DNA from: Streptomyces paludis
GTDB taxonomy: Bacteria; Actinomycetota; Actinomycetes; Streptomycetales; Streptomycetaceae
Assembly (NCBI RefSeq): GCF_003344965.1
Contig: NZ_CP031194.1
Location: forward strand, 2,046,001-2,110,000
DNA: 64,000 nucleotides
Direction: 5' to 3'
A model generated the notes under the pieces. It saw only the letters and a list, made by a program, of their open reading frames with translations. It made no database searches and was not told where the DNA came from. Shown here in pieces: positions 37,240 through 64,000 of the stretch. The position numbers were made by a program, and so were the translations under genes. Every line of letters begins with the position of its first letter. The first letter of the stretch is position 1.

Positions 37240-37322
37240 GTAACAGGCCCTTCACTGAGAATCAACTACCAGTGGTTCGATTCGAAGTGAACCTAGTAGT
37301 CATACGCGGCATACGTAAACAT

Positions 37323-40290: not shown

Positions 40291-40322
40291 CCGATTGCTG
40301 AGCGCGATGTACGCGTCCGATG

Positions 40323-40507: not shown

Positions 40508-41746
40508 CTACGCGGCCCGGTGTCTCAGCAGGGCGACGTGCCGCGCCTGGCCGCGGAGGCCGCGTACAACTCTGCGCGGCAGCGAATTGCGCCGGCGTAC
40601 GGCCTCGGGGGCCTCGATGCGCCGGAGGCCGGGCTTGCCCAGCCAGTCGGGGACGGTCACCCGGTACGACTCCTCCGGGAGCCCGGTCGACCGGTCGCCG
40701 AAGTGCGGGAGGACCAGGTACGGCGTGCGCGCGCGGCCCCGGTGCACGACCTCGGGCACGGTCTCCGCCTTGACGAAGGCCAGCATGTCGGCCAGCAGAT
40801 CGAACCGCCCCAGGGCGACGCAGTCCAGCCGCAGCCGCTCGGTCACCTTGATCCGGGCGGCCACTCCGGGCGTCCAGTAGCGCGCCATCAGCGGGGCCGC
40901 CAGCGCCATTTTGTGCCGCTGGATCTTTTTCGGCTGCTTCAGGACACCGTGACCGAACTGCTGGATCAGTCCGACCGTGAAGGGTCTGACCATGAGGCGG
41001 TCACGCTTCGCGCCGGGCGGGACGAGTTCGGTGATGAGCGCCATCAGCGCGCTCACGGAATCGAATCGCAGCGTATAACTGCCACTCTTTGTCACATGTT
41101 TGCCGTCGTCCCGGCCGACGAGGTAATAACAGGTGTAGTCGGCGATCACCGAAACACCGTTTCCCCGGATGTACGCCTCCATGGTGAAGAGCGCGTCCTC
41201 GCCGGTCCGCAGCCCTTCGTCGAAGCGCAGATTCAGCCGTTCGACGAGTTCGCGCCGGAAGAGCTTCTGCGCGCTCAGCGTGTAAATCACCTGCGAGTCG
41301 TATATGTCGACGCGCGCGGTGGTACGGCGCCACATCGACCCGGGCGCCCCTCTGTTCACCCCCTCGACCTTTCCGAGCACCACATCGGTCCGGGCGCGGT
41401 CGGCCATCGCGACCATGCGCTCCAGGGATTCGTCGGCGAAGTAGTCGTCCGCGTCGAGGAAGAAGAGGTAACGGCCCCGGGCCAGGTCTATGCCGACATT
41501 GCGCGGTCCGCTGGGGCCGCCCGAGTTGGCCTGGTGTACCACCCTGGTCGGGATGGACGTCCGGGCCGCGAAGTCATCCAGATATTCCCCCGTGCCATCG
41601 GTCGAGCCGTCGTCTATGGCGACGATCTCGATACGGCCGGCACCCAGCGTCTGGGCTTCGACCGATTCCAGGCAGCGGATCAGGTAGGGCATAGCTTCAT
41701 ATGCCCCGACGATCACACTCACATCAGGAACAGACTTATCGTTCAT
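40508..41746 (-). CDS. GT2 glycosyltransferase
   Basis: 412 residues. GT-A motifs are VSVIVGAYEAMPYLIRCLES, IDDGSTDGTGE, SGGPSGPRNVGIDLARGRYL and the metal motif FFLDADDYF. It continues QKLFRRELVERLNLRF and RTGEDALFTMEAY, which resembles the TarS-like group seen in the genes at 33588 and 58530, but lacks their large C-terminal modules. Probably adds a sugar to a wall polymer; substrate unknown. The ATG at 41746 lies in an AT-rich leader with a Crp-type site about 57 bases upstream and a 9-base direct repeat. 217 bases separate it from rmlA. Confidence 0.88.
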   Translation of the reverse strand: MNDKSVPDVSVIVGAYEAMPYLIRCLESVEAQTLGAGRIEIVAIDDGSTDGTGEYLDDFAARTSIPTRVVHQANSGGPSGPRNVGIDLARGRYLFFLDADDYFADESLERMVAMADRARTDVVLGKVEGVNRGAPGSMWRRTTARVDIYDSQVIYTLSAQKLFRRELVERLNLRFDEGLRTGEDALFTMEAYIRGNGVSVIADYTCYYLVGRDDGKHVTKSGSYTLRFDSVSALMALITELVPPGAKRDRLMVRPFTVGLIQQFGHGVLKQPKKIQRHKMALAAPLMARYWTPGVAARIKVTERLRLDCVALGRFDLLADMLAFVKAETVPEVVHRGRARTPYLVLPHFGDRSTGLPEESYRVTVPDWLGKPGLRRIEAPEAVRRRNSLPRRVVRGLRGQARHVALLRHRAA

Positions 41747-48570: not shown

Positions 48571-49050
48571 ATGCGTGAACTCGCCTCCGCGAATACCGTC
48601 AGCGACTGCGCCGCCTCGACCCTGTGCCTCTACTCGCAGACGAGCTTCAATCACACGGCGGCGAACAGCAAGATCACATCGAGGAGCACCAACTCCTGTT
48701 TCCTCGTCCATGGAGTCTTCAATGCGAACTTCACGACCCGCTCCTACGTCAACAACCTGTCCGTGACAGCGCATCTCTGGAGTTACGAGTCGACCGGCTG
48801 GACCAAGATCAAGAACTACCCTTCGGGCGGATTCAGTTCGGACATCGGCATCAACACCGGCCTTTATCCGACCAACGGCGTCATGTGCATGGGATCCGCG
48901 CACCCCTCGAACTTCCGACCTGTCGCTTCCGGCACCGGCGCGCCCCCGCATGTGCGGGGGCGCGCCGGCGGCAGGGAGGTTCAGCCCGCCGTGACCGCGA
49001 GTCCCCGGGTGGCCGCGACTCTGCCGAGCACCCAGCCCGCGTGGACCTGA
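48571..49050 (+). pseudogene. Remnant of a secreted peptidase-inhibitor-I36-like protein
   Basis: An open frame of 159 codons. Residues about 12-105 look genuinely coding: third positions are nearly all G/C, and the composition (Asn/Ser/Thr, four Cys) suits a secreted domain. The pattern STLCLYSQTSFN...TRSYVNNLSVTAHLW resembles I36/SMPI-type inhibitors. No signal peptide precedes it. The frame then runs through the strong terminator hairpin at 48935-48968 and 70 bases into the end of the opposite gene, so the natural stop seems lost. Most likely a decayed gene truncated at both ends. Family assignment is tentative. Confidence 0.5.
48935..48968. terminator. Terminator between convergent genes
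   Basis: A perfect 16-bp stem CCGGCGCGCCCCCGCA/TGCGGGGGCGCGCCGG with a tiny loop, 12 bases beyond the stop of the secreted-protein gene at 48981. Confidence 0.8.
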
Positions 49051-49982
49051 AGGGGATTTCCGTCGACGTTCCTGATCTTCAGGGACAACCGCATTCTCGG
49101 GCAGTCCGACAGCTGAGCCTTCTCCAGATAAAGGGAGTTGGTAGCCGTCTGATGGTGTTTCGCGGTGGAAATGGACCAGGTGCTGACCGGGCCCTTGACA
49201 ACCGATCCGCACGCGGTCCCGTCAGATTTCTGCGGCTGCGCCTCGATCCATGTCTCGACCTGAGTTCCCGTATAGGCGGACGTACCGCCGGAACAGATCG
49301 AGGAAGCGGGCTTGCATGTGGTCAGCTGGGCGTCCTGGACCACTGTCGTACGACCGGATCCGACCGGTGCGTAGGTCTGCCCGAGAGTCGTCAGGGTACT
49401 GCCCCGTGCGACGACCGCGGCACTGACATCAGGGAGTGTCCAGCGTGCCGCACCCCCGTACCGCGAGCGCACGATCTGTGCACCGGCCGGTATTTTCATG
49501 CCCACCGTCCGGCCGTCCTTGATGATGGTCGAATAACTCGTGACCGAAATTCTGCATTCGTATGTGTCCGTCGTGGGCGCCACGAACATCCATCGCAGTA
49601 CGGGGGTGAGCGAAGTCTCCGCCGGAGGCACCAGATTCGTTGCCCAATAAGCGCCGGATTCCTGATCCGCGGGCAGCTCGGCACCGTTCGAGTACCGGCA
49701 GCGGATCGCGAAGGTATTGCCGATGTTGTCACCGGCCTTGAGCGGATCCACACTGCTGACCGTCAGGCCGGTCGCCCGGAGGTAGGACTTCTCGCCTTCC
49801 GTCGCGTCGAACATCACACTCGTGCCGGGTATGTCCTTGTATGTGTATGCGTTCGGATCGACCTGGTAGGCAAAATCGGACGAAGCGGCGTGAGCCTCCG
49901 TCGGCGCGCCGCCGAGCGCGCCTTGAGCCGCCAGCATCAGCACCGCCACCATCGCCGCCGGTCCGATACGCCATGACGTCAT
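48981..49982 (-). CDS. Secreted protein of unknown function
   Basis: 333 residues. A clear Sec signal peptide occupies the first about 32 residues (hydrophobic MVAVLMLAAQGALGG, then a PTEAHA cleavage region). The mature part is beta-rich with several Cys (IRCRYSNG, YECRISVT, TTCKPASSICSGG, GTACGSV, SDCPRMRL) that could form disulfides. The ATG at 49982 has GGGGGGA 6 bases upstream; an upstream ATG at 50006 lacks one. Divergent from the acetyltransferase at 50095. No family recognised. A TATCCT lies in the divergent gap on the other strand. Confidence 0.8.
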   Translation of the reverse strand: MTSWRIGPAAMVAVLMLAAQGALGGAPTEAHAASSDFAYQVDPNAYTYKDIPGTSVMFDATEGEKSYLRATGLTVSSVDPLKAGDNIGNTFAIRCRYSNGAELPADQESGAYWATNLVPPAETSLTPVLRWMFVAPTTDTYECRISVTSYSTIIKDGRTVGMKIPAGAQIVRSRYGGAARWTLPDVSAAVVARGSTLTTLGQTYAPVGSGRTTVVQDAQLTTCKPASSICSGGTSAYTGTQVETWIEAQPQKSDGTACGSVVKGPVSTWSISTAKHHQTATNSLYLEKAQLSDCPRMRLSLKIRNVDGNPLQVHAGWVLGRVAATRGLAVTAG

Positions 49983-50094
49983 AGGAAATCCCCCCAGGAT
50001 CAGCACATCAGGTTAACGAAAAGTAACACAGAGCGATCTTCGGAGGGGTGACCGTATCCTCGCTCCGCAAGCCCGCTTACGGAAGGCATGAAAA

Positions 50095-50712
50095 GTGACG
50101 TACAGGGTCCAGCCCACCGCCCAGGTCGACGCGACCGCCGTGATCGGCGACGGGAGCAGCGTCTGGGACCTCGCGCAGATCCGCGAGCACGCGACGCTCG
50201 GGGACGGGTGTGTGGTGGGGCGCGGGGCGTACGTCGGCACCGGTGTCCGGATCGGGGACAACGTCAAGATCCAGAACTACGCCCTGGTGTACGAGCCCGC
50301 CGAACTGGCCGACGGCGTGTTCATCGGCCCCTCCGTGGTCCTCACCAATGACCACAACCCCCGCTCCGTCGATCCCGAGGGCAAGCAGAAGCGCGGCGAC
50401 GACTGGGAAGCGGTCGGGGTGAAGGTCGCCGAGGGGGCCTCGCTCGGCGCCAGGTCCGTCTGTGTGGCTCCCGTACGCGTCGGCCGCTGGGCCATGGTCG
50501 CCGCGGGCGCCGTGGTGACCAAGGACGTGCCGGACTTCGCCCTGGTCGTCGGGGTGCCCGCGCGCCGTATCGGCTGGGTGGGCCGGGCCGGAGTGCGGCT
50601 GGAGGAGCGCGACGGAGAGCCGGGCGTATGGGAGTGCCCGCGGACCGGCTCGCTGCACGACGAGAAGAACGGCGTGCTGACGGAGCGGGTTCTGACAGAG
50701 CGCGCGGGCTGA
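50095..50712 (+). CDS. Left-handed beta-helix N-acetyltransferase, WbpD/WlbB-like
   Basis: 205 residues. Hexapeptide repeats run from residue 5 (TAQVDATAVIGDGSSVWDLA) and include the WlbB-type signature VKIQNYALVYEPAELADGVF and IGPSVVLTNDHNPRS. In the Wbp pathway this enzyme acetylates the 3-amino group of UDP-GlcNAc(3NH2)A using acetyl-CoA. The GTG at 50095 has GGAAGG about 8 bases upstream. It opens region B and is followed by a decayed acyltransferase, then the UDP-GlcNAc 2-epimerase gene. The exact sugar is inferred from pathway context. Confidence 0.85.
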   Translation: MTYRVQPTAQVDATAVIGDGSSVWDLAQIREHATLGDGCVVGRGAYVGTGVRIGDNVKIQNYALVYEPAELADGVFIGPSVVLTNDHNPRSVDPEGKQKRGDDWEAVGVKVAEGASLGARSVCVAPVRVGRWAMVAAGAVVTKDVPDFALVVGVPARRIGWVGRAGVRLEERDGEPGVWECPRTGSLHDEKNGVLTERVLTERAG

Positions 50713-50866
50713 ACAGCGCGCACGACGGGCCGGCAAAAAACATCGGTCGTCACGTACATCCCTCGGTCGCCGTGGAGCGTCTGTTCTGACGTCCGTGCAC
50801 GCATACGTGCACGGACGCGACGGAACCCGAGAAGAACGGTGATCCCCTCCCGTGCCGACTGGACCG

Positions 50867-51389
50867 ATGGCCGCACCCGCCGGGCGTACTCTCCTGCCCT
50901 CGATCAGTGAGGTCACCTGGTACGGGCGGAGCGGGGGTGACCTTCTTCTGCGTCCTCTCGGGCTTCGTCCTCGCCTGGACGTACGACGGCAGGCAGGTGC
51001 CGGCGAGGGTCTTCCACCGGCGGCGGTCCGCCCGGATCCGGCCGCTGCTCGTTGCCTCGGTCGTGGTCTCCGTGGCGGTGTGGACCGCGCTGGGCGCCTG
51101 GCACCTGTTCCACGAGATCGTGATCCGCTCGCTCCTGGGCGGCTTCGGAAAGCCCGAACCGGGCCTCGATACCGCCCTGTTGTGGCTCGTGACACTTCTC
51201 ATAAGTCTCACAGTGGCGGCCATTGCCTACTATTACGTGGAACATCCACTCGAACGCCCGCTGCGCCGCGTCGGCCCCGCCGGGCCGCCGTGGTGTGGAC
51301 ACTCCGCAGCCGGTACACCGGCGCTGAAGAGCCGTCCAGAGCCGTTTTCCCCCTTCGCACGCCCCAGCCCGCCACCACCATGGCCTTGA
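50867..51389 (+). pseudogene. Acyltransferase-3-family remnant with internal deletions
   Basis: Fragments of an integral membrane O-acyltransferase are recognisable. A possible N-terminal MAAPAGRTLLPSI is in one frame (50867), and in another frame follow GGAGVTFFCVLSGFVLAWTY (about 50922) and VFHRRRSARIRPL, then the C-terminal LLISLTVAAIAYYYVEHPLE. The intact family has about 380-400 residues; here the middle eight or so helices are missing. The joined parts are still in frame from 50907 to 51389, so a 160-residue product could be made but would not be functional. It probably once modified the region B polymer. Confidence 0.6.
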
Positions 51390-51402
51390 AGAAGAGTGTT
51401 CG

Positions 51403-52506
51403 ATGAAAGTCGTCAGCATCGTCGGTGCCCGCCCCCAGCTGGTGAAGCTCGCACCCGTCGCAGCAGCGTTCGCGGGCACCGAGCACCAGCACTTCATCGT
51501 GCACACGGGGCAGCATTACGACGCCGATCTCTCCGATGTCTTCTTCGACGGACTGGGCATTCCCGCACCCGACATCCACCTCGGCGTCGGCTCCGGCAGC
51601 CACGGCGTCCAGACCGGCGCGGTGCTCTCCGCGCTCGACGCGGTGTTCGAGGCGGAGCAGCCCGACTGGGTCCTCGTGTACGGCGACACCAACTCCACCG
51701 TCGCGGGAGCCCTGTCCGCGGTGAAGATGCATCTGCCGGTGGCGCATCTGGAGGCCGGGCTGCGCTCCTTCAACCGGCGCATGCCCGAGGAGCACAACCG
51801 CGTCCTCACCGATCACTGCGCCGATCTGCTGCTCGCCCCCACCGAGGAGGCCATGGGCCATCTCGCCAACGAGGGCCTGGCCGGCCGCGCCCGGCTGGCC
51901 GGGGATGTCATGGTCGACATCTGTCTGCGGATCCGGGACGCCGTACGGGCCGGGGAGCACGCCGCGCCCGTACTGCCCGAGGGAATCGACCCGTCGCGGC
52001 CGTTCCTGCTCGCGACGCTGCACCGGCCGGACAACACCGACGACCCCGCGCGCCTCGCCGCGCTCGTCGACTCGCTCGCACGGCTTCCCCTGCCGGTGGC
52101 GCTGCCGGCCCATCCGCGGCTGGTCGCGCGGGCCGAGGAGTACGGGATCAGCCTCACCCGCGGTTCCCTCCACGCCGGCCGTCCGCTGCCCTACGCGGGA
52201 CTCGTCGCGGCCGTGCTCGCTTCCTCCGGCGTGATCACCGACTCGGGCGGTCTCCAGAAGGAGGCGTTCCTGCTGGAGCGGATCTGTACCACGGTGCGAC
52301 CCGAGACCGAGTGGGTCGAAACAGTCAGAACCGGGTGGAACGCCCTGGTCGCCGATCCGCACCTGCTCTCCGACGAGAAGTGGGCCGCCACGGTGACGCG
52401 GAGCACCCCGGCCGGAGATGCCGGAACCCCGTACGGCGACGGACGCGCCGCGCACAATGTTGTCAAGCTCATGGAAGAGTGGAAGAGAGGTAGCCGGCTC
52501 GTGTGA
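51403..52506 (+). CDS. wecB: UDP-N-acetylglucosamine 2-epimerase (non-hydrolysing; WecB/WbpI class)
   Basis: 367 residues. The motifs are VVSIVGARPQLVKLAPV, TGQHYD, VYGDTNSTVAGALSA, LEAGLRSFNRRMPEEHNRVL, LLATLHRPDN and ITDSGGLQKEAFLLE. This is the non-hydrolysing epimerase class, which makes UDP-ManNAc or, for WbpI-type enzymes, the manno epimer of a diacetamido-uronic acid. Sequence alone does not separate the two; the neighbouring WbpA/B/D/E-like genes favour WbpI. HRPDN replaces the common HRxEN. ATG 51403. The stop overlaps the next gene by GTGA. Confidence 0.9.
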   Translation: MKVVSIVGARPQLVKLAPVAAAFAGTEHQHFIVHTGQHYDADLSDVFFDGLGIPAPDIHLGVGSGSHGVQTGAVLSALDAVFEAEQPDWVLVYGDTNSTVAGALSAVKMHLPVAHLEAGLRSFNRRMPEEHNRVLTDHCADLLLAPTEEAMGHLANEGLAGRARLAGDVMVDICLRIRDAVRAGEHAAPVLPEGIDPSRPFLLATLHRPDNTDDPARLAALVDSLARLPLPVALPAHPRLVARAEEYGISLTRGSLHAGRPLPYAGLVAAVLASSGVITDSGGLQKEAFLLERICTTVRPETEWVETVRTGWNALVADPHLLSDEKWAATVTRSTPAGDAGTPYGDGRAAHNVVKLMEEWKRGSRLV

Positions 52507-53966
52507 CACCGGAAGCGGACCTCGGAGTTCCCCATCGGGTTCCGCGCTGTCCGCTTCCCGTCCGTCACCGTGCCAGCACATCCGTTATGTCAGCGATCCC
52601 CAGGTCCGGGCCGCCCGCGAAAGCGGCGCGTCCTCATCTGATCTATCTCGCCATTGGTTTTCCGCCGGCCGCCAAGAGCTGCGCCTACCGGATGCGCGAG
52701 ACGGCGAACCAGTTCATCAACACGGGCTGGGACGTCACCGTCGTCACGATCGCCCAGGAGTCCTGGGAGCGGGATTCCGGCATCGACCTCACCCTGCTCG
52801 ACCAGGTCGACCCCCGGGTCAAGATCGTCGAACTGCCGCTGGCCCGGGAGGATCTGGAGACGAACATCCGTCTCTACTCCGAGGAACGGGCCATCAGCCC
52901 CACGGGCTGGGTCGCCAAGCTGCGCGAGCGGCAGACCGAGTCGTTCCCCGAGGCCAACTTCGGTGCGTGGCGCGGTGATCTGGAGCAGGCCGTCCTCGGC
53001 GTCCACGCGGCGCACCCCGCCGATCTGCTGCTGGCCAGCTGCGTTCCGTATGTCAATCTGGCGGCCGCCTGGAAGCTCTGGGAAGAGGCCCGGGTGCCGT
53101 ACTCGGTGGACTTCCGCGACGGCTGGTCCATCGATGTCATCGACGGTGTCGAGGCGTTCTCCCGCGATTCCGAGGAAGCGCGCTGGGAGAAAAAGATCCT
53201 GGAGAACGCCCTGTCGCTGTGGGTCGTCAACGACCCCATCGCCGGGCATTACCGGACGCGCTACCCGGACCTCGCCGACCGCGTCCATGTCGTACGGAAC
53301 GGCTATGACGCCGACAGCTCTCCCGGCCGGTCGCACACGCCCGACCCCGAGGCGGGGCTCGTCTTCGGCTATCTCGGTACGGTCAACTTCACGACGCAGC
53401 ATCTGACGACCGTCCTGAACGCCTGGAAGGCCGCCCGCGAGCGGGAGCCGCTGCTGGCCAACGCGCGCTTCGAGGTACGCGGCCACATCGGCAACGGCGC
53501 CGGCCGCGAGGCCAACCGGCACACGGAAATCCTCAAGCAGGCCGAGGCCGACGGCGTCTCCTTCGGCGGTCCCGCCGCGAAGGCCGAGGTCGCCTCGCTC
53601 TACGCCGGCTGGGACGCGATGGTGCTGATTCTCATCGGCGGCCGGTATGTGACCTCCGGCAAGGTGTACGAGTACATGGCCACCGGTCTGCCGATCGTCT
53701 CCGCCCATCTCGTGGAGCACGACGCCTCCAACGTACTGGCGGGGCACCCGCTCTGGACGGGGGCCGTGGGGCTCGACGAGGAGCGGCTGACCGGGGCGTT
53801 CGTCGAGGCCGCGCGCCTGGCCGTCGAGACGGACGACGCCATGCACGCCGAAGCGATGTCACACGCCGACCAGTTCACCCGCGAGGCCCTCATGACGGTC
53901 GCCGTGCGGGACCTGGTCGCCACTTTCACCACGCGGTACGCGACCGCGGAAGGAACCACGCCGTGA
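52503..53966 (+). CDS. GT4-type glycosyltransferase
   Basis: 487 residues. The GT-B C-terminal part is clear: VFGYLGTVNFTTQHLTTVL, FGGPAAKAEVASLYAGWDAM and the acceptor motif GKVYEYMATGLPIVSAHL. The N-terminal domain begins LIYLAIGFPPAAKSCAYRMR. The GTG at 52503 overlaps the epimerase stop, but its first 28 residues look non-conserved; an ATG at 52587 is the alternative and neither has a strong RBS. It transfers a sugar in the cytoplasm, probably onto a lipid-linked region B glycan. Donor unknown. It overlaps the following glycosyltransferase. Confidence 0.87.
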   Translation: MTPEADLGVPHRVPRCPLPVRHRASTSVMSAIPRSGPPAKAARPHLIYLAIGFPPAAKSCAYRMRETANQFINTGWDVTVVTIAQESWERDSGIDLTLLDQVDPRVKIVELPLAREDLETNIRLYSEERAISPTGWVAKLRERQTESFPEANFGAWRGDLEQAVLGVHAAHPADLLLASCVPYVNLAAAWKLWEEARVPYSVDFRDGWSIDVIDGVEAFSRDSEEARWEKKILENALSLWVVNDPIAGHYRTRYPDLADRVHVVRNGYDADSSPGRSHTPDPEAGLVFGYLGTVNFTTQHLTTVLNAWKAAREREPLLANARFEVRGHIGNGAGREANRHTEILKQAEADGVSFGGPAAKAEVASLYAGWDAMVLILIGGRYVTSGKVYEYMATGLPIVSAHLVEHDASNVLAGHPLWTGAVGLDEERLTGAFVEAARLAVETDDAMHAEAMSHADQFTREALMTVAVRDLVATFTTRYATAEGTTP

Positions 53967-56104
53967 CCGTTGTCCTGATTGTCGCCGCGACCCGGCCCCA
54001 GCTCGCCGTACTCGCCGATTCGGTCCGCACGTTCCATGAGCTGGGTGCCCAGGTGCACCTGGCGGGCACCTTCCATCTGGCACCGGTGTCCAAGGAACTC
54101 ACCGCGGCGGAGCTGGACGGGGTACGGCAGCTGCCGCGGTCGGTGCGCGGCAGCTCGGCGCTGCGCCGCAAGGCCGCCGAATCGCCCACCGGAATGCGGG
54201 TGTGGCTCCAGGCGACGGGCGACAACTGGCTGCGTGCGCAGGCCCGCAAGGCGGATGTCCTGGTGGCGCTCGACTCCAAAGCGGTCTACACCGTGTGGCG
54301 GCTGGCGCAGCACAACCGCGGCGCCGAGGCGCTGTACGGCATCACTCCGGCGCTGCGGGCCGTGGAGGCCCTGCGGGACCGGGGCGACGCGGCCCCGCGC
54401 CGCGGTATGCGTGACAGCCTGCCGTCGGCGGCGGTCGTGGCCCGCGACGTACGGCGTTCCGTGTCCGGTCTGCCCGCCGTGGTGATGCGGACCGCCACCG
54501 CGCGGCCCGTGATGCGCTCCGCCGTCGGCGCCAGGCTGTGGCGCGGCGCCGTGACCGCGCCGGGCGTGCCCGCCCGGCTGCGGGTCTCGGCCTCCCGTTA
54601 CGTCGCGGAGGGCATGGAGTCCGCCGGCCGGACCAGCGGCGCGGCGATCGCGCTGGCCGCGGCGGCCTCCAAGGTCGGGGACCTGGGGATCCGGGCGTCA
54701 CTGCTGGACGAGTCGGTGATGAAGGAGATCTCGAACGGCCTTGTGCCGGGAAAGCTTCCTCAGGCGGTCGCCGCGCAACTCGCCCACGCCGATGACCGGT
54801 TCACCCGCGGCGACTTCCCGGAGGCGGCCACCGCCCTGAACCGGGCGCTGACCCTGAACTTCCACCGCGTGGTCCATATCGACCAGCTGTCCTCGCCGCT
54901 GGCGCGGAAGGCCGGCGCGTACGTGGAGCCGCTCTACGCCTCGAAGGTCATGCGGGCTCTCGGCGCGCCCCGGGGCCGCCGGACCCCGCACGCGCCGGCG
55001 CCCACCGGCCGGCCGCTGCGGCTGCTCGTGACCACGAGCGGCAACGCCAACTTCCTCCACCACATCCTGTCCCACTTCGGGGACCATCCGGGGGTCGAGC
55101 TGCGCTTCCTCGACCTGGCCGCGCAGAAGTCGCTGATGCGGATCTCGTGGGCGGGCCGGCGGATTCTGGAGGACCGGCTCGCCGGGGACGCGACCGACTA
55201 CCAGGAAGAGGTCGAGCGGCTGATCCGTCCGTATCTGGACTGGGCGGACACCGTCTTCCTGGACTGGGCGGTGGGGCCCGCGTCGATGCTCACGACCATC
55301 GATCCCGGCGACACCCGGATCGTCGTACGGCTGCACAGTTACGAGGCGTTCACCCGGTGGCCCCACTCCACGGACTTCTCGCGGATCGACGACCTGGTGT
55401 TCGTCGCGCCGCACGTCCGGGATCTGGTGGCCTCCCTGGTGCCGCAGCTCCGCGGTGAGCACGCGCCCCGCACGCATGTCATCGACAACGCGATGGAACT
55501 CGCGGGTTTCGCCCGCCCGAAGCCGGCCGAGGCACGCTTCCGCCTGGGGCTGATCGGTATCGGGCAGGTCGCCAAGGATCCGCTGTGGGCCATCGAGGTG
55601 CTGCGTCTTCTGCGGAAGGAGGACGACCGCTACCGGCTGTCGCTGGTGGGCGGTGACATGAGTGCCAAGACGAGCCACGCCACCCGTGATTACCTCCAGC
55701 GCTTCGAGAAGAAACTCGCGCCGCTGGTGAAGTCGGGCGCCGTGGAGCGTCTCGGCGCGACCGACGACGTGGCGTCCGCGCTGACCGGCATCGGCACGAT
55801 CCTCAGCTCCTCGGTGCGCGAGGGCTGCCACGTGGGTCTGATGGAGGGCGCGGCGAGCGGCGCGCTCCCCGTCGCCCGCGACTGGCCCTTCTACGCGGGC
55901 CGTCCGAACAGCGCCCGCACGCTCTACCCGGAGGGCTGGGTCGTGGAGACCCCGGAGGAGGCCGCCGAGCGGATCCGCCGTCACACCGGCACCGAGGAAG
56001 CCTGGCGGAAGGCGGGCGCCGCGGCCTCCGCCCACGCGCTGACGGCGTGGGACTGGCCCGTGGTGCGGACCCACTTCGAGAGGCTGTTCCTCGGTACGGA
56101 GTGA
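53963..56104 (+). CDS. Large GT4-like glycosyltransferase
   Basis: 713 residues. An N-terminal domain (VVLIVAATRPQLAVLADSVR) and an Arg/Ala-rich middle precede a GT-B section from about 345. That section shows LRLLVTTSGNANFLHHILSH, IVVRLHSYEAFTRWP, RLGLIGIGQVAKDPL and the C-terminal SSSVREGCHVGLMEGAASGA motif with the expected E-x7-E type spacing. The GTG at 53963 overlaps the upstream gene by GTGA. Much larger than a normal GT4, so it may be bifunctional or carry a regulatory N-terminus. Last gene of the plus-strand run in region B; a hairpin follows. Confidence 0.78.
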   Translation: MTVVLIVAATRPQLAVLADSVRTFHELGAQVHLAGTFHLAPVSKELTAAELDGVRQLPRSVRGSSALRRKAAESPTGMRVWLQATGDNWLRAQARKADVLVALDSKAVYTVWRLAQHNRGAEALYGITPALRAVEALRDRGDAAPRRGMRDSLPSAAVVARDVRRSVSGLPAVVMRTATARPVMRSAVGARLWRGAVTAPGVPARLRVSASRYVAEGMESAGRTSGAAIALAAAASKVGDLGIRASLLDESVMKEISNGLVPGKLPQAVAAQLAHADDRFTRGDFPEAATALNRALTLNFHRVVHIDQLSSPLARKAGAYVEPLYASKVMRALGAPRGRRTPHAPAPTGRPLRLLVTTSGNANFLHHILSHFGDHPGVELRFLDLAAQKSLMRISWAGRRILEDRLAGDATDYQEEVERLIRPYLDWADTVFLDWAVGPASMLTTIDPGDTRIVVRLHSYEAFTRWPHSTDFSRIDDLVFVAPHVRDLVASLVPQLRGEHAPRTHVIDNAMELAGFARPKPAEARFRLGLIGIGQVAKDPLWAIEVLRLLRKEDDRYRLSLVGGDMSAKTSHATRDYLQRFEKKLAPLVKSGAVERLGATDDVASALTGIGTILSSSVREGCHVGLMEGAASGALPVARDWPFYAGRPNSARTLYPEGWVVETPEEAAERIRRHTGTEEAWRKAGAAASAHALTAWDWPVVRTHFERLFLGTE

Positions 56105-56121
56105 CCGGCCGACGCGGTGAG

Positions 56122-56153
56122 GGTGGTCCCCCGGATCCTTCCGGAGGACCACC
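56122..56153. terminator. Bidirectional terminator between the glycosyltransferase and galE
   Basis: GGTGGTCCCCCGG (56122-56134) pairs with CCGGAGGACCACC (56141-56153), 12 of 13 positions, around a 6-base loop, between convergent genes. Confidence 0.8.
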
Positions 56154-56187
56154 CCGGGCACGGTCGGCCGCCCGTGGCCGCGAACGC

Positions 56188-57165
56188 TCAGGCCCGCGAA
56201 CGCTGACGCGGACGCCGGGCCGCCCAGGCCGAGGCCACCATCGCGCGCACATCGTGGCGCGCCTCCCACCCCAGTTCCGTACGGATACGGTCGACCGACG
56301 CCACGACCCGCGCCGGGTCGCCCGGACGCCGCGCCACCACGCGCGGCCGCAGATCGGCGTCCCCGGTGACGCGCTGGACGATCCCGATCATCTCGGCGAC
56401 CGAAACGCCCTCGCCACGCCCGATGTTGAGGACCAGGGACGCCGTCCGGTCCGCGGTGAGCCGTCGCGCGGCCGCGACATGGGCGGACGCGATGTCCTCG
56501 ACGTGAATGTAGTCGCGGACGCAGGTGCCGTCGGGAGTCGGGTAGTCGGCGCCGAAGACGAGCGGGGGCGTACCGGCCTCGACGCGGTCGAAGACCATGG
56601 GCACGAGATTGGTCGCCCCGTCGTCGCCGAGTTCGGGCGTGGCGGCTCCGGCGACGTTGAAGTAGCGGAGCGAGGCCGTCGCCATACCGTGCGCGGCGCC
56701 CGCCGCCGTGACCAGCCACTCCCCCGCCAGCTTGGTCTCGCCGTACGGGCTGATGGGCAGGCAGGGCGTCCGTTCCGTGACGAGGGGGACATCGGGCATG
56801 CCGTAGACCGCCGCCGACGAGGAGAAGAGGAACCTGCTCACGCCGGTCCCGGCCGCCGCGTCGAGCAGCACCCGCAGCCCCTCGACGTTCTCCCGGTAGT
56901 AGTGCAGCGGCTTCTCGATGGACTCCGCGACCTGTTTCTTCCCCGCGATGTGCACCACACCGGTGACGGCATGGGCGCGCAGCACCTCCGCGACACGGGG
57001 GTGGTCGAGGACGGTGCCGGTCTCCAGGGGGACCCCGGCGGGCAGCCTCTCCGCCCGGCCGGTGCTCAGATCGTCGAGCACCACGACACGCTCTCCCGCG
57101 TCGGTCATCGCCTTCACCACATGCGCGCCGATGTATCCGGCGCCGCCGGTGACCAGCCAGGTCAT
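56188..57165 (-). CDS. galE: UDP-glucose/UDP-GlcNAc 4-epimerase
   Basis: 325 residues, GalE length. The NAD-binding motif is WLVTGGAGYIGAHVV, followed by GVVHIAGKKQVAESIEKPL and the catalytic SSSAAVYG and YGETKLAGEW (Tyr/Lys). RYFNVAGAA is typical of GalE. It interconverts UDP-Glc/Gal or the N-acetyl forms. ATG 57165 with GGAGG upstream. First of the minus-strand genes at the end of region B; 75 bases separate it from the dehydrogenase. Substrate range cannot be decided. Confidence 0.9.
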   Translation of the reverse strand: MTWLVTGGAGYIGAHVVKAMTDAGERVVVLDDLSTGRAERLPAGVPLETGTVLDHPRVAEVLRAHAVTGVVHIAGKKQVAESIEKPLHYYRENVEGLRVLLDAAAGTGVSRFLFSSSAAVYGMPDVPLVTERTPCLPISPYGETKLAGEWLVTAAGAAHGMATASLRYFNVAGAATPELGDDGATNLVPMVFDRVEAGTPPLVFGADYPTPDGTCVRDYIHVEDIASAHVAAARRLTADRTASLVLNIGRGEGVSVAEMIGIVQRVTGDADLRPRVVARRPGDPARVVASVDRIRTELGWEARHDVRAMVASAWAARRPRQRSRA

Positions 57166-57240
57166 AGCAGTTTCCTCCGTGCGGCGGCCCCGCCCACCGA
57201 CCGGCGGGCGGGGCCGACACTTGCTCGTACGGTCCGGGAC

Positions 57241-58524
57241 TCAGCCGCCGATGACGACGCGCCGTACGCCCTTCCAGGCGTCCGGGTCCGTGGTGCGGCG
57301 CCCGTCGACCAGGACGGTGACGTCCGGCAGGTCGGCCGGGGTCAGCTCGCGGTACTCGGCGTGGTCGGCCTGGAGGATCGCCGCGGTGACCTTCTCACCC
57401 GCGTGGGGCGTGAGGCCGTGCGCGGTCAGTTCCTCCGCCGTGTACATCGGGTCCGAGACATACGCGACGGCGCCGCGCGCCGTGAGCGCCTCGACGGTCG
57501 GGAAGACCCCGGAGAACGCGGTCTCCTTGACGCCCCCGCGGTAGGCGGCCCCCAGCACCAGGACACCCACACCGGTCAGATCGCCGTACGCGGCGGCCAG
57601 CAGGTCGACGGCGTACTCCGGCATCGCCGCGTTGGCCTCGCGCGCCGACCGTACGACCGTGGCCGACGGGTCGTTCCACAGATACATCCGCGGATAGATC
57701 GGGATGCAGTGGCCGCCGACCGCGATGCCGGGCTGGTGGATATGGCTGTACGGCTGGCTGTTGCAGGCTTCGATGACCTTTTTGACGTCGATGCCGCTCT
57801 GATCGGCGAAGCGCGCGAACTGGTTCGCCAGCCCGATGTTGACGTCCCGGTACGTGGTCTCGGCGAGCTTGGCCAGCTCGGAAGCCTCCGCCGTGCCGAG
57901 GTCCCAGACACCGTTCGGCCGGGGCAGGTCCTCGCGCGCGTCGAAGTCGAGCACCGACTCGTAGAAGGTGACACCGTGGCGCGCCGACGCCTCGTCGATG
58001 CCGCCGACCAGCTTCGGGTAGCGGCGCAGATCCGCGAAGACCCGGCCGGTCAGCACCCGTTCCGGGGAGAAGACCAGATGGAAGTCCTCACCGGCGGTGA
58101 GACCCGAACCGGCCTGGAGCATCGGCGCCCAGCGCGTACGGGTGGTGCCGACCGGCAGGGTGGTCTCGTACGAGACGAGCGTGCCCGGGCGCAGCCCCTT
58201 GGCTATCGCCTCGGTGGCCGAGTCCATCCAGCCGAAGTCCGGCACCCCCTCGGCGTCCACGAAGAGCGGGACGACGACCACGACGGCGTCGGACTGCGCG
58301 ACCGCGGCCGTGGTGTCCGTCGTCGCGGAGAGCAGCCCCTCGCCGACGGCCCGCTTGAGCTTGACGTCGAGATCGTGCTCGCCGGGGAAGGGCTCGACGC
58401 CGGAGTTGACCAGCTCGACGACCTTCTCGTTGACGTCCGCGCCGATCACCCGGTGGCCCTTGGCCGCGAACTGCACCGCGAGCGGCAGACCGATCTTGCC
58501 GAGCGCGACTACACAGATATTCAT
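57241..58524 (-). CDS. UDP-N-acetylhexosamine 6-dehydrogenase (WecC/WbpA class)
   Basis: 427 residues. The NAD-binding motif is NICVVALGKIGLPLAVQFAA, and the UDP-sugar domain has SPERVLTGR and the catalytic Cys in VGGHCIPIYP. It oxidises C6 of a UDP-N-acetylhexosamine twice to give the uronic acid. In a WbpA role it would act on UDP-GlcNAc to give UDP-GlcNAcA; as WecC it would act on UDP-ManNAc. The ATG at 58524 has GAGGAAG upstream. It follows the GT2 gene by 5 bases and is part of one minus-strand run down from the aminotransferase. Confidence 0.9.
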   Translation of the reverse strand: MNICVVALGKIGLPLAVQFAAKGHRVIGADVNEKVVELVNSGVEPFPGEHDLDVKLKRAVGEGLLSATTDTTAAVAQSDAVVVVVPLFVDAEGVPDFGWMDSATEAIAKGLRPGTLVSYETTLPVGTTRTRWAPMLQAGSGLTAGEDFHLVFSPERVLTGRVFADLRRYPKLVGGIDEASARHGVTFYESVLDFDAREDLPRPNGVWDLGTAEASELAKLAETTYRDVNIGLANQFARFADQSGIDVKKVIEACNSQPYSHIHQPGIAVGGHCIPIYPRMYLWNDPSATVVRSAREANAAMPEYAVDLLAAAYGDLTGVGVLVLGAAYRGGVKETAFSGVFPTVEALTARGAVAYVSDPMYTAEELTAHGLTPHAGEKVTAAILQADHAEYRELTPADLPDVTVLVDGRRTTDPDAWKGVRRVVIGG

Positions 58525-58529
58525 CGGAT

Positions 58530-60149
58530 TCACTTCCTCTTCAGCCGGGGCAGCAGCCTGCGCAGCCGCGCGACGGGACCGGTCCGGGGCTCCCACACGG
58601 GGGCCGTGGTGATCACCAGCCGTCCCTTCGAGTTCACTTGGGCGGCGACACGGTGGGGGACGCTCGTGCCCCAACGGCGCGCCTGCACCCCGGGCAGACC
58701 GTCGGCCCGGACGGGTATCTCGTACGTGGCGCCCGCGACGTCGGCATAGACGCGCACCCCGCGTTTGGCCGTGCCCGGCTCGACGGGGATCCGGGCGGTC
58801 ACGATCGTGCCGGACCCGCCGGGCGCTTCCTCGTAACTGAACCGGCCTACGGGCGCGGGCAGTTGATGGCCGGCGGGCAGACGGCGCGCGCCCAGTTTGT
58901 CGGCGGTGTCGGGCATCGCGCTCCGGGCCAGCCGTACCACCGCCGAGGAGGTGTCACCGACGATCCCGACCCGTACCCTGACCACGGACGTCATCGTGTC
59001 GGAGGTCTGCTCCCAGCCGACGGACACCAGCTCGGTGCCGGCGGATATCCGGCCCGTCACGGTCTCTCCCAGCAGCTCGAAGCCGCGGTCGGGCACGGCG
59101 ACGCCCGGGTCGCGCAGCCCCGGGTAGCGGGCGTAGGCGTGGCCCTTCTCCAGCAGGAAGGGCGGCGCGCCGTGCTCGGCCTCGTCCGTGATGGCCCTGA
59201 GCAGCTCGTCGACGGAGCCGCTCCGTGCCAGCAGGAGCCGCGCGCGGCGCTTGACGCCCAGCGAGTCCCGCAGGGCGTCCGACAGATAGGTGTCCACGAG
59301 CCGGCCGACACCGTCGCACACGGTGCGCCGGGTGACGGGGTCGAGGAGAGCGAGGTCCGCGCGGAGCAGCTTGCTGAGTTCCCAGGTGAAGTGGCGCTTG
59401 AAGACCGCGTCACGCTGCGGGCCGGGCTCTATCAGCCCGGCGGTGTGCTCCATGATCCTGGCGGTGCAGCGCAGCCGGGCCAGCTGGTCGGCCCGGTAGG
59501 TGATGTTGCCCGCGTCTCCGCGCTTCACCGCGTAGTAGTACGTGTAGTCCCCGAGCACCGAGATCTTCCGGCCCCGGACGCACGCCTCGATGGTGAAGGG
59601 CTGGTCGCTGCCGACCGGCATGTCCTCGGGGAAGCGCAGTCCGTGCTTCTCGACGAGTTCGCGGCGGAAGAGCTTGGTGTTGGCCAGCGCGAACGGCAGT
59701 TCCTTGCCGTACAGGCTGACGTCCGGGTCGTTCTTCCGGTACAGCGTCTGCCGGACGTAGCGCCCGTTGGTGCCGACCATCTTGCCGATGACCACGTCGG
59801 ACTCGTGCTCGTCCGCGTAGGCGACCATCCGGGCCAGGGCCTCGTCGCCGAGGTAGTCGTCGGATCCGATGAAGTAGACGTATCGCCCCGTGGCGATATC
59901 CAGCGCCCGGTTGCTCGGCGCGGCGGGACCACCGGAGTTCTCCTGGTGGATGACCTTGACCGTGTCCGGGTACAGCTCGGCGAACCGTTCGAGTTCCGCA
60001 CCGCTGCTGTCCGTGGAACCGTCATTGACCGCGACGATTTCGAGCCGGTCCAGGCCGATCGTCTGCCCGATGAGGGAGTTCAGACATTCGGTGAGGTACG
60101 GCATGGTGTTGTAGACGGCGACGACGACGCTGACGTCGGGCTGGGTCAA
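58530..60149 (-). CDS. GT2 glycosyltransferase with C-terminal beta-rich module (TarS-like)
   Basis: 539 residues. GT-A motifs: VSVVVAVYNTMPYLTECLNS, NDGSTDSSGAE, SGGPAAPSNRALDI and VYFIGSDDYLG, where the first Asp of DXD is replaced by Gly-Ser. TKLFRRELVEKHGLRFPEDM follows. Residues about 330-539 form a beta-rich module, and the end is Arg/Lys-rich (RLRRLLPRLKRK). The start is a TTG at 60149 with AGGAAG 7 bases upstream; it overlaps the stop of the oxidoreductase (TTGA). It is a paralogue of the genes at 33588 and 40508. Confidence 0.86.
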   Translation of the reverse strand: MTQPDVSVVVAVYNTMPYLTECLNSLIGQTIGLDRLEIVAVNDGSTDSSGAELERFAELYPDTVKVIHQENSGGPAAPSNRALDIATGRYVYFIGSDDYLGDEALARMVAYADEHESDVVIGKMVGTNGRYVRQTLYRKNDPDVSLYGKELPFALANTKLFRRELVEKHGLRFPEDMPVGSDQPFTIEACVRGRKISVLGDYTYYYAVKRGDAGNITYRADQLARLRCTARIMEHTAGLIEPGPQRDAVFKRHFTWELSKLLRADLALLDPVTRRTVCDGVGRLVDTYLSDALRDSLGVKRRARLLLARSGSVDELLRAITDEAEHGAPPFLLEKGHAYARYPGLRDPGVAVPDRGFELLGETVTGRISAGTELVSVGWEQTSDTMTSVVRVRVGIVGDTSSAVVRLARSAMPDTADKLGARRLPAGHQLPAPVGRFSYEEAPGGSGTIVTARIPVEPGTAKRGVRVYADVAGATYEIPVRADGLPGVQARRWGTSVPHRVAAQVNSKGRLVITTAPVWEPRTGPVARLRRLLPRLKRK

Positions 60150-61174
60150 CTGGCCACTTCCTGAAGGGAGATGCTGTCGATGGAGACATTCACCGTACGG
60201 CCCGTGGCCGCCGATTCCAGTACCGATGCCGCGACCTCCACCGTCCGCAGCCCCTGTCGCAGGGTGCAGATGTCGCTCGGCGCGCCCAGGACCGCGTCGC
60301 GGAACAGTTCGTGTTCGACGAGGAGGGGCTCGCGCTTGGGGATCGCGTAGCGGATCATGTCGCCCTCGGCGACGCCGCGGAAGGCGCGCAGGGCCTCCCA
60401 CTCGGTGGTGACGGCCGCGTTCGAGTGGAACGTGAGGTCGGCGGTGAGGGTGTCGGCGATGAAGCAGCCGCGCTCGCCGGTGACCGAGGTGAAGCGTTCC
60501 TTGAGCGGGCTCAGCCAGTTGACCAGGTGGTTGACCATGGTGCCGTCGGTCAGGCGGCCCACGGCGGAGACCATGTCCTCGTGCGAGCGGCCGCTCTTGG
60601 ACACCGTGTGGGCGGAGATCGAGGTGTAGTCCCGGCCCGTCACCCAGCCGGTCAGATCGATGTCGTGGGTGGCCAGGTCCTTGACCACGCCGACATCGGC
60701 GATGCGGTGCGGGAAGGGGCCCTGGCGGCGGGTGACGACCTGGTAGACGTCGCCCAGTTCGCCGGCCTCCAGCCGGGCGCGCAGGCTGAGCAGGGCCGGG
60801 TTGCAGCGTTCGATGTGGCCGACGCCGGCCACCAGGCCGCGGGACTCGAACGCCTCGACCAGCCGGCGCGCGCCCTCGACCGTGTCGGCGAGGGGCTTCT
60901 CCAGGAGAGCGGGGACACCGGCCCCGGCCAGCTGGAGGCCGACCTGCTCGTGCAGGGCGGTGGGGCAGGCGACGACCGCGTAGTCGACGCCGGCTTCCAG
61001 CAGTTCTTCGACGGTCGACAGCACGGGGACCCCCTGCGCGGCGCCGTGCTTGTCCCCCATGGGGTCGACGACCCCGACGAGCTGGACGCCCTCAAGACCG
61101 GCCAGTACCCGGGCGTGATGACGTCCCATCGAACCGAGCCCGATCAGCCCGGCCCTCAGCCCCCCGCTGCTCAC
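60146..61174 (-). CDS. Gfo/Idh/MocA oxidoreductase, WbpB-like
   Basis: 342 residues. The NAD-binding motif is AGLIGLGSMGRHHARVL; EKPLADT and the later HDIDLTGWVTG are typical of sugar oxidoreductases. In the Wbp pathway, WbpB oxidises C3 of UDP-GlcNAcA so that WbpE can aminate it. Here the gene sits directly after the WbpE-like aminotransferase (GTGA overlap at 61171-61174) with GGGAGAG upstream, matching the WbpB-WbpE pairing. Substrate is inferred from context, as the family is broad. Confidence 0.87.
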   Translation of the reverse strand: MSSGGLRAGLIGLGSMGRHHARVLAGLEGVQLVGVVDPMGDKHGAAQGVPVLSTVEELLEAGVDYAVVACPTALHEQVGLQLAGAGVPALLEKPLADTVEGARRLVEAFESRGLVAGVGHIERCNPALLSLRARLEAGELGDVYQVVTRRQGPFPHRIADVGVVKDLATHDIDLTGWVTGRDYTSISAHTVSKSGRSHEDMVSAVGRLTDGTMVNHLVNWLSPLKERFTSVTGERGCFIADTLTADLTFHSNAAVTTEWEALRAFRGVAEGDMIRYAIPKREPLLVEHELFRDAVLGAPSDICTLRQGLRTVEVAASVLESAATGRTVNVSIDSISLQEVAS

Positions 61175-62289
61175 AGTTTCTCTCCCAGGATGTTGACGGC
61201 GGTGACGACGCGCTCCAGGTCCTCCGCGGTGAGCGCGGGGTGCACGGGCAGCGAGACGACCTCGGCCGCCGCGCGCTCCGTCTCCGGCAGGTCCCAGACG
61301 CGGCCGGCCTTCTGGTCCGGCTCCCAGTACGGCTTCAGCCGGTGGATCGGCGTCGGGTAGTAGACGGCGTTGCCGATGCCCGCCTCCGAGAGCCGCGCCA
61401 TCGCCGCGTCGCGGTCCCCCCGGATCCGGACGGTGTACTGGTGGTAGACGTGCCGGACGCCCTCGGCGACCGGGGGTGTGACCACGTTCGGCGCGGTGAT
61501 GTGCGTGTCGAGGTACGCGGCGTTGGCCCGGCGCCGCTCGGTCCATCCGCCGAGCTTCGCCAGCTGGACGCGGCCCACGGCGGCGGAGACATCGGTCATC
61601 CGCATGTTGGCGCCGACGATCTCGTTGGCGTACCGCTGCTCCATGCCCTGGTTGCGCAGCAGCCGCAGGGTACGGGCGACCTCGGCGTCGCCGGTGGTCA
61701 CCATGCCGCCCTCCAGGGCGTGCATGTTCTTCGTCGGGTAGAAGCTGAACGTTCCGCCGGAGCCGAAGGCGCCGACGGGCGTGCCGTTGAGGGCCGCGGC
61801 GTGTGCCTGGCAGGCGTCCTCGACCAGGGCGAGTCCGTGCTTTGCGGCGAGGGGCGTCAGCCGGTCCATCGCGGCGGGGTGACCGTACAGGTGCACGGGC
61901 ATGATCGCGGCGGTACGGGGGGTGATCGCGGCCTCGGCGGCGGCCGGGTCCAGACAGAAGCTGCCGGGCTCGATGTCGGCGAAGACGACGTCGGCGCCGA
62001 CCAGCCGGACGGCGTTCGCCGAGGCGGCGAACGAGAACGACGGCACGATCACCTCGTCGCCGGGACCGATGCCCAGCGCGAGAAGCAGCAGGTGGAGCGC
62101 CGAGGTGCCGGAGTTGACGGCCACACAGTGGGCGCCTTCCACCAGCTCAGAGAAGCCCGCCTCGAAGGCGGCCACTTCGGGGCCCTGTACGACGCGGCCG
62201 GTACGCATGACGCGTACGGCGGCCTCGATCTCCTCTTCACCGATGACCGGGCTGGCGGCCGGGATGGGCCGCGCGTCACTGCTCGGCAT
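61171..62289 (-). CDS. DegT/DnrJ/EryC1/StrS-family aminotransferase, WbpE-like
   Basis: 372 residues. PLP lysine is in FSFYPTKNMHALEGGMV. Other family marks are AVNSGTSALHLLLLALGIGP, EVIVPSFSFAASANAVRLVG and HQYTVRIRGDRDAAM. It transfers an amino group to a keto-sugar nucleotide; with the WbpB-like gene behind it, 3-amination of a UDP-uronic acid is the best guess. The ATG at 62289 has AAGGAGG 5-6 bases upstream, and the frame upstream is non-homologous. First gene of the minus-strand run, so the promoter should lie in 62290-62530. Confidence 0.92.
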   Translation of the reverse strand: MPSSDARPIPAASPVIGEEEIEAAVRVMRTGRVVQGPEVAAFEAGFSELVEGAHCVAVNSGTSALHLLLLALGIGPGDEVIVPSFSFAASANAVRLVGADVVFADIEPGSFCLDPAAAEAAITPRTAAIMPVHLYGHPAAMDRLTPLAAKHGLALVEDACQAHAAALNGTPVGAFGSGGTFSFYPTKNMHALEGGMVTTGDAEVARTLRLLRNQGMEQRYANEIVGANMRMTDVSAAVGRVQLAKLGGWTERRRANAAYLDTHITAPNVVTPPVAEGVRHVYHQYTVRIRGDRDAAMARLSEAGIGNAVYYPTPIHRLKPYWEPDQKAGRVWDLPETERAAAEVVSLPVHPALTAEDLERVVTAVNILGEKL

Positions 62290-62656: not shown

Positions 62657-64000
62657 TCAGTCCTCCGTCGGCGCCGATACTCCGCGCGGCGTCTGCTGCT
62701 CGGCCGCCGCGGTCTTCTTCGACGTCGCCTTGACGGCGGTCTTCTTGACCGTCGCCTTCTTCGCCGTCGTCGTCTTCTTGGCGACCGTCTTCTTGGCCGC
62801 CGCCTTCTTCGCCACCGCCTTCTTCGCGGGGGCCTTCTTGGCGGGCGCCTTCTTGGCCGCCGTCTTACGGACGGCCTTCTTGGCCGGGGCCGGCTCCGAC
62901 GACTCCGTCTGCTCCGACGGCTCGGCCGGCTCCGTCACCTCGGTGGCGGACTCGTCCGGTACGGCGACGGGCTCGACGGCCGGTACGGCGGCGGGCTCCT
63001 CGGCCTTGACCGACTCGACCACCACGACGGCCGCGTCCTCGGCACCCGACGGCGAACCGGCGGGAGCGGTGACCTTACGGGTCGCCCTGCGACGCGCCCG
63101 CGGCGGAGCGGCGACGGGCGCCTCCTCAACAGCGGGCGCCTCGGCAGCCGGCGCCTCAACGACGGGCGCTTCTACGACGGCCGCCTCCGCGACCGGCTCG
63201 ACCACGACCGGCTCGGTCACGGGCTCCGCGTCGGCCGCCTTGGGCGAACCGGCCGGAGCCGACGCCTTACGGGTGGCCCGGCGGCGCGTACGGCCCGTGG
63301 GCGCCGCCGCCTCGGCCTCCGGCTCCACGACCGGAGCCTCAACAGCAACTTCAGCGACCGGGGCCGCCTCAGTCTCCACCTCAGCAGGAGTAGAAGCAGA
63401 AGCAGCAACAGGAGCCGCCTCCTCCGTCCGCGCCTCCGCACCGCGCGGCGACCCGGCCGGAGCCGACGCCTTGCGCGACGCCCGGCGGCGCGACCGGCCG
63501 CGTACGGCCGCCTCCGCCTCCGCGACGCTGCTGTACAGCTCCTCGTCGGGGACGAACTCCGGCGCGGCGAGCGCGACCGGCGCGGCCACCTCCGCCGCCA
63601 GTTCGGCCTCCGACTCGCGCTCGGTCTCCGCGTCGGCCCCGGCCCCGGACTCGGCCTCGGCCGCCGTCACCGCGTGCTCGTGCTCGTGGTCCGCGCCCGA
63701 CCCGCCGCGGCGCTTCTTGGCGCGCTTGCCGGTGCCGCCGACGACGGAGGAACCGCCGCCGCCGGACGCCGCCGGCTGCTCCATGTGGACGATCACGCCA
63801 CGGCCGTTGCAGTGGACGCAGGTCTCGGAGAAGGACTCCAGCAGCCCCTGGCCCACCCGCTTACGGGTCATCTGGACCAGGCCCAGCGAGGTGACCTCGG
63901 CCACCTGGTGCTTCGTACGGTCCCGGCCCAGGCACTCCAGCAGCCGCCGCAGCACCAGATCCCGGTTGGACTCCAGCACCATGTCGATGAAGTCGATGAC
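62657..64000 (-). CDS. rne: Ribonuclease E/G, C-terminal part (N-terminus off window)
   Basis: The visible 447 residues are in frame to the right edge, so the gene continues off the window. The first part matches the end of the RNase E/G catalytic domain (VIDFIDMVLESNRDLVLRRL, RDRTKHQVAEVTSLGLVQMT, a CVHCNGRG zinc-type CxxC). The rest is low complexity: Ala/Glu-rich, with three copies of an RRRATRKASAPAGSP-like unit and a final histone-H1-like AKKAPAKKA tail. RNase E processes rRNA and degrades mRNA. Upstream of the region B operon; normally next to rplU in actinobacteria, here 14.4 kb away. Confidence 0.92.
   Translation of the reverse strand, partial: VIDFIDMVLESNRDLVLRRLLECLGRDRTKHQVAEVTSLGLVQMTRKRVGQGLLESFSETCVHCNGRGVIVHMEQPAASGGGGSSVVGGTGKRAKKRRGGSGADHEHEHAVTAAEAESGAGADAETERESEAELAAEVAAPVALAAPEFVPDEELYSSVAEAEAAVRGRSRRRASRKASAPAGSPRGAEARTEEAAPVAASASTPAEVETEAAPVAEVAVEAPVVEPEAEAAAPTGRTRRRATRKASAPAGSPKAADAEPVTEPVVVEPVAEAAVVEAPVVEAPAAEAPAVEEAPVAAPPRARRRATRKVTAPAGSPSGAEDAAVVVVESVKAEEPAAVPAVEPVAVPDESATEVTEPAEPSEQTESSEPAPAKKAVRKTAAKKAPAKKAPAKKAVAKKAAAKKTVAKKTTTAKKATVKKTAVKATSKKTAAAEQQTPRGVSAPTED

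Follow-up and report, generated by a model that had tools for sequence, protein, structure and literature searches.

In Streptomyces griseus, the genes utrA-E were found by selection for resistance to umbrella toxins, antibacterial toxins acting between Streptomyces for which teichuronic acid (TUA) is a receptor, and utrF-J lie convergently alongside, with L21, L27, TarIJ (SGR_4956) and TagF as neighbours (Zhao et al., Cell 2025, PMC13274773). According to this report, the S. griseus polymer, as seen by nuclear magnetic resonance (NMR), is a repeat of ->3)GalNAc-a(1->4)-ManNAc3NAcA-b(1-> (N-acetylgalactosamine and 2,3-diacetamido-2,3-dideoxymannuronic acid) linked through the corresponding glucuronic acid, GlcNAc3NAcA, to the ribitol phosphate of teichoic acid, and is absent without utrC, the TarS-like gene; Streptomyces antibioticus, without utrE, F and H, has a GlcNAc3NAcA homopolymer, also on ribitol phosphate, from which it follows that the 6-dehydrogenase functions there without the 2-epimerase (PMC13274773). 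The biosynthetic pathway is, by its authors' own account, not experimentally validated (PMC13274773). Here, a 64,000-nucleotide stretch of the 8.45 Mb single-contig genome of Streptomyces paludis (NZ_CP031194.1, positions 2,046,001 to 2,110,000; hereafter, the window) was analyzed, and the sugar gene cluster that it holds between rplU (L21; 47868-48188) and rne (62657-63982 for the part within the window) is very probably a utr teichuronic acid locus of the S. griseus kind, in which utrI has become a pseudogene.

The rplU-to-rne interval consists of nine open sugar genes, one broken gene and a gene for a secreted protein. Read from right to left on the minus strand, the first five are utrA, for a DegT-family aminotransferase (61171-62289, 372 residues; PF01041, 408.6 bits; SFYPTK motif), utrB, for a Gfo/Idh 3-dehydrogenase (60146-61174, 342 residues), utrC, for a GT2 glycosyltransferase with a TarS linker domain (58530-60149, 539 residues; PF00535, PF22181), utrD, for a uridine diphosphate (UDP)-sugar 6-dehydrogenase (57241-58524, 427 residues; TIGR03026, 285 bits, cut-off 189.8; GGHC motif intact), and utrE, for a GalE-type 4-epimerase (56188-57165, 325 residues; TIGR01179, 321.6 bits, cut-off 262.3). 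The convergent plus-strand genes encode a UtrJ-like hexapeptide N-acetyltransferase of the WbpD/WlbB type (50095-50712, 205 residues; Hexapep), the remnants of the Acyl_transf_3 O-acetyltransferase UtrI (50894-51290), a UtrH-like non-hydrolysing 2-epimerase of the UDP-GlcNAc3NAcA (WbpI) type (51403-52506, 367 residues) and two glycosyltransferases assigned also by their place in the published gene order, one UtrG-like (52503-53966, 487 residues, start uncertain; Glyco_trans_1_4, 32 bits, cut-off 27) and one UtrF-like (53963-56104, 713 residues; Glyco_trans_1_4, 25.2 bits, below the cut-off of 27; PMC13274773). At four junctions of the locus, adjacent reading frames share 4 bases. The original prediction, made from the letters of the window, had named five enzyme genes (utrA, B, D, H and J), galE and three glycosyltransferases; all of these are present, the five as open, codon-biased reading frames, whereas the broken acyltransferase gene between 50713 and 51402 did not figure in it. 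The motifs sought in UtrA, B, D, E and H are intact, EKP and GHIERCNP of the Gfo/Idh enzyme among them.

As utrE, F and H are present, with the same gene order and neighbours, the S. griseus chain type is predicted for S. paludis (PMC13274773), and the polymer, its linkages and the substrate of each enzyme can be proposed from S. griseus and from the enzyme families: UtrA, B, D, J and H would lead from UDP-N-acetylglucosamine (UDP-GlcNAc) through UDP-GlcNAc3NAcA to UDP-ManNAc3NAcA, UtrE would supply UDP-GalNAc, UtrC would attach the first GlcNAc3NAcA to ribitol phosphate in the wall teichoic acid, and from there UtrF and UtrG would extend the chain by GalNAc and ManNAc3NAcA in turn. One island making a teichuronic-acid-like polymer that contains a 2,3-diacetamido uronic acid is what had been expected beforehand, and the homologous S. 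griseus locus is indeed needed for such a polymer, as shown by NMR (PMC13274773); the earlier interpretation was thus largely right, and for relatives it is already in print. Three points appear to go further than PMC13274773, namely the utrI pseudogene, a UtrB that is not of the WbpB type and the UtrA/UtrB pairs in two other kinds of cluster; no further report of this locus was met in the literature searched, which left out most subscription papers.

In a survey of 199 genomes of the genus (S. paludis counted throughout), UtrD was found in 34 genomes at E<=1e-120, all 34 with UtrB, and UtrB in 36 at E<=1e-60, the two beyond the UtrD set being G075 and G147. UtrH had matches in 54 genomes at E<=1e-60, 37 of which (at most 48% identity) were set aside, while the other 17 (at least 70% identity) all fall within the 34 UtrD genomes; a single TGA occurs in each of three of these matches (G107, G149, G158), and the UtrH of G110 is 2.5 Mb away from UtrD. 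In 28 of the 34, L21 and UtrD share a contig and are no more than 25 kb apart (in three they are on different contigs, and in three the L21 place was not listed), and an rne match lies 0.7-2.8 kb from L21 in seven of the eight UtrD-negative genomes fetched, versus 14.5 kb in S. paludis; the island is therefore patchy and sits at a fixed site. At the otherwise empty rplU-rne site of one of these seven (L103, 6080-6829), a UtrC-like GT2 enzyme with a TarS linker stands alone (41% identity over 256 residues).

The best PDB match of UtrH is the Thermus UDP-GlcNAc3NAcA 2-epimerase 8sxv, with 329 bits, compared with 113 bits for Escherichia coli WecB (1f6d). Trp307, Tyr96 and Ala18 of the Thermus enzyme are described as changes fitting a bulkier substrate (PMC10622841); at these positions Arg, His and Met stand in E. 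coli WecB, clusters of Deinococcus, Sulfitobacter, Pseudomonas and Haloferax encode proteins with Trp, Tyr and Ala, and Tyr96 and Trp307 are kept in UtrH and in all 80 related loci. UtrJ has WlbB (3mqg, 148 bits) as its best PDB match and is 38-45% identical to three proteins in the WbpD position and 34% to a Haloferax acetyltransferase. UtrD, at 34% identity to an annotated WbpA, 39% to the Haloferax enzyme, 31% to WecC and 30% to TviB, is placed clearly with neither WbpA nor WecC, and UtrA, for which WbpE scores 222 bits and other enzymes score higher, gets no clear specific assignment within the DegT enzymes. The complete WbpA/B/D/E/I-type set that had been proposed is not supported as such: the acetyltransferase and the epimerase are members of the types named, whereas UtrD and UtrA find no clear WbpA or WbpE placement and UtrB is not of the WbpB type (see below).

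The locus adjoins, at about 5 kb, a gene for a TarIJ-like fusion of IspD and a short-chain dehydrogenase (44174-45604, minus strand), which would supply cytidine diphosphate-ribitol, and a TagF-like teichoic acid polymerase gene (41921-44005, minus strand). Several observations weigh against the assignment as a utr locus: the TagF assignment is weak (PF04464 on a short stretch, 23.8 bits, cut-off 22.1); UtrH, like the related loci, has Leu in place of Ala18, which is Ala in the solved enzyme and in the four cluster homologues; rne was not matched in the eighth of the UtrD-negative genomes (L107); for UtrF, likened to TarM from structure models in the published description (PMC13274773), a sequence search of the PDB returns nothing at E<=1, so that the TarM likeness is not seen at that level; and one broken gene, utrI, could signal a wider decay of the locus.

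Held against a relative of 416 residues, the utrI remnants correspond to residues 54-66 in one frame and to residues 64-120 and 316 to about 380, directly abutting, in another; about 195 codons are deleted, one frameshift is present, and the N-terminus and the start are lost. A sequencing error might account for the frameshift but hardly for the deletion, and the S. paludis genome holds no other UtrI match at E<=0.001. A UtrI-like protein occurs in nine of the 199 genomes (E<=1e-60), directly beside utrH, by coordinates, in two (G053, G100); among the 80 related loci, 16 have a utrI-like match anywhere in the fetched stretch, and four (L015, L016, L028, L036) have an acyltransferase reading frame of 380-504 residues between utrJ and utrH. 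That the locus is dying, utrI having been lost already, and that the polymer may no longer be made is a very unlikely explanation of the pseudogene, for the other nine genes are open, with the motifs mentioned above intact, and 64 of the 80 related loci are without a utrI-like reading frame of at least 200 residues, many of them having utrA, B, D, H and J, with contig ends cutting some of the loci. The 4-O-acetyltransferase of S. griseus is predicted to be UtrI, and site I of UmbA4 holds the 4-O-acetylated chain end, while Streptomyces anulatus is reported to be without an O-acetyltransferase gene, so the absence as such is not new (PMC13274773). With utrI destroyed, the chain end in S. paludis should be without the 4-O-acetyl group, unless it is acetylated by an enzyme of another family, which is possible.

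The best PDB matches of UtrC are 5tze (152 bits) and 5tz8 (151 bits), presumably both TarS, and these, together with the PF22181 linker, make it TarS-like, as a UtrC should be; its residue 182 is an Asp, close in numbering, not by alignment, to D181 of S. griseus. A free acidic capsule, with its polymerase and exporter elsewhere, instead of a teichoic acid-borne chain would fit such an enzyme poorly and is highly improbable, given also that teichoic acid genes adjoin the locus and that the S. griseus and S. antibioticus chains sit on ribitol phosphate (PMC13274773). The remark in the original prediction that no initiator, polymerase or exporter is visible stands insofar as no separate one was found in the window (no genome-wide search aimed at capsule polymerases or exporters was made); the apparent gap, however, is explained by teichoic acid attachment, since in the S. 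griseus relative wall teichoic acid carries the chain (PMC13274773) and TarIJ-like and, weakly, TagF-like genes are in the window. Hardly credible, finally, is plain ManNAcA made by WecB and WecC, or another amino uronic acid, with the Gfo/Idh, DegT and acetyltransferase enzymes serving a different sugar: UtrD does score best, after the general TIGR03026, on the archaeal UDP-ManNAc dehydrogenase model (246 bits, below the cut-off of 750), and the UtrH score exceeds the cut-off of the wecB model (240.9 versus 210.15), but the WbpI-position protein of a wbpA-bearing cluster likewise exceeds it (322.6 bits), so that the wecB model does not discriminate, Trp307 and Tyr96 of UtrH argue against UDP-GlcNAc, and the S. 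griseus polymer contains ManNAc3NAcA (PMC13274773).

As references for the WbpB type, three plasmid-encoded Gfo/Idh proteins were used, from Deinococcus, Sulfitobacter and Pseudomonas, whose genes lie close to WbpD- and WbpI-like genes (in Pseudomonas also with an annotated wbpA). They share 51-61% identity among themselves and 18-22% with UtrB, whereas UtrB is 36% identical to the enzyme of the haloarchaeon Haloferax. On the archaeal UDP-GlcNAc 3-dehydrogenase model NF040723, UtrB scores 188.5, the Haloferax enzyme 230 and the three references 25-26 bits, none of them reaching the equivalog cut-off of 450. A PDB search with a 22-protein UtrB profile put GnnA first (107.7 bits), GenD2 second (86.7), Bordetella WlbA tenth (78.1) and Chromobacterium WlbA at 59.0 bits, and a WbpB-type query found no match in the 199 genomes at E<=1e-20 while being positive in two of three control records, the third being haloarchaeal. 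The predicted fold of UtrB (mean predicted local distance difference test score, pLDDT, 83.5) does not separate GnnA from WlbA; in the family model, the profile search and the Foldseek ranking, GnnA and the archaeal UDP-GlcNAc 3-dehydrogenases come nearest. UtrB is not of the WbpB type. As UtrB is nearest to GnnA and the archaeal 3-dehydrogenases, the chemistry at C3 may precede the oxidation at C6, judging from sequence relationships; nearness to GnnA does not settle the substrate, however, because WlbA was solved with the uronic acid UDP-GlcNAcA (title of 3q2k).

UtrA/UtrB-like pairs also occur in two further kinds of cluster, without a recognised adjoining 6-dehydrogenase. G075 has UtrB at 59% identity and no UtrD-class match at E<=1e-120, and a Streptomyces plasmid (L097) carries a DegT and Gfo/Idh pair, none of the genes in the 19 kb covered being annotated as a UDP-sugar dehydrogenase; in G065 and G149, the second UtrB copies (67%) are not accompanied by a second UtrD match. 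Among the scanned predicted genes of the G075 locus (L098) and of the two loci with second copies (L099, L100), no UDP-sugar dehydrogenase family match was seen, four genes being without any family. These pairs favour UtrA and UtrB acting on UDP-GlcNAc itself, although a dehydrogenase elsewhere in the genome could serve, and the greater nearness of UtrJ to the WbpD-position proteins than to the Haloferax acetyltransferase counts against a UDP-GlcNAc-first order. In L097 (4026-10020) and L098 (1875-7834), the pair keeps company with a TauD enzyme, an FAD oxidoreductase, a carrier-protein/hexapeptide fusion and a NUDIX protein, the product perhaps being an amino sugar of unknown kind; in L099 (3643-13961) and L100 (2408-10091), it stands between two Stealth-type transferases, with a GT4 enzyme and, in L099, a LytR-CpsA-Psr gene close by, perhaps for a wall-bound phosphate polymer with a 3-amino sugar.

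A hybrid route to UDP-ManNAc3NAcA in Streptomyces that does not follow the Wbp order is a proposal that we put forward tentatively, as it is rather less than an even bet: GnnA-like UtrB and UtrA would first make UDP-GlcNAc3N from UDP-GlcNAc, C6 oxidation and the WbpD- and WbpI-type steps would come after, the UtrA/UtrB pair would be a portable 3-amino-sugar module used elsewhere without an adjoining 6-dehydrogenase, and the loss of utrI would be a toxin escape step, taking away the acetyl cap contacted by the umbrella-toxin lectin UmbA4. The separation of UtrB from WbpB opens a direct biochemical test, with UDP-GlcNAc versus UDP-GlcNAcA as the substrate, and S. paludis, a natural utrI null whose locus is otherwise open and of the ManNAc3NAcA type, could be used to probe whether the acetyl cap governs toxin recognition.

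Next to utrJ, on the minus strand, a secreted-looking, beta-rich protein of 341 residues is encoded (48981-50006; AlphaFold2 mean pLDDT 89.5), for which no Pfam family and no clear fold match were found and whose relatives number 54 among the proteins listed, its own entry included. The end of its gene is overlapped by a plus-strand reading frame resembling Peptidase inhibitor I36 (48571-49050; 17.7 bits, cut-off 21.1), a domain that four relatives of the secreted protein carry. Beyond the teichoic acid genes, and adjoining them, dTDP-rhamnose-type genes (RmlA-, RmlB- and RmlD-like), two TarS-linker glycosyltransferases and a methyltransferase occupy 33600-41692.

Compared by its published description (PMC13274773), the S. 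griseus utr locus shares with that of S. paludis the utrA-E order followed by convergent utrF-J (utrI as a remnant only), the rplU/rpmA site, the TarIJ and, weakly, TagF neighbours, the enzyme families and the presence of utrE, F and H, as in the ManNAc3NAcA/GalNAc type, whereas utrI is a pseudogene in S. paludis, and utrJ, adjoined by umbA in S. griseus, has a secreted protein of another family beside it here. The TuaD equivalog of the teichuronic acid pathway of Bacillus subtilis is not matched at its cut-off of 700 (77.3 bits). With the Wbp/Wlb pathway of Pseudomonas and Bordetella, the locus has in common a WbpI-type epimerase, a WbpD/WlbB-type acetyltransferase, a DegT aminotransferase, a Gfo/Idh enzyme and a 6-dehydrogenase, but its Gfo/Idh enzyme is not of the WbpB type and its 6-dehydrogenase is not specifically WbpA-like. 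GnnA of Acidithiobacillus and the archaeal UDP-GlcNAc 3-dehydrogenases, in turn, are the nearest relatives of UtrB, which nevertheless stays well below their equivalog cut-off and, unlike them, belongs to a locus with uronic acid genes.

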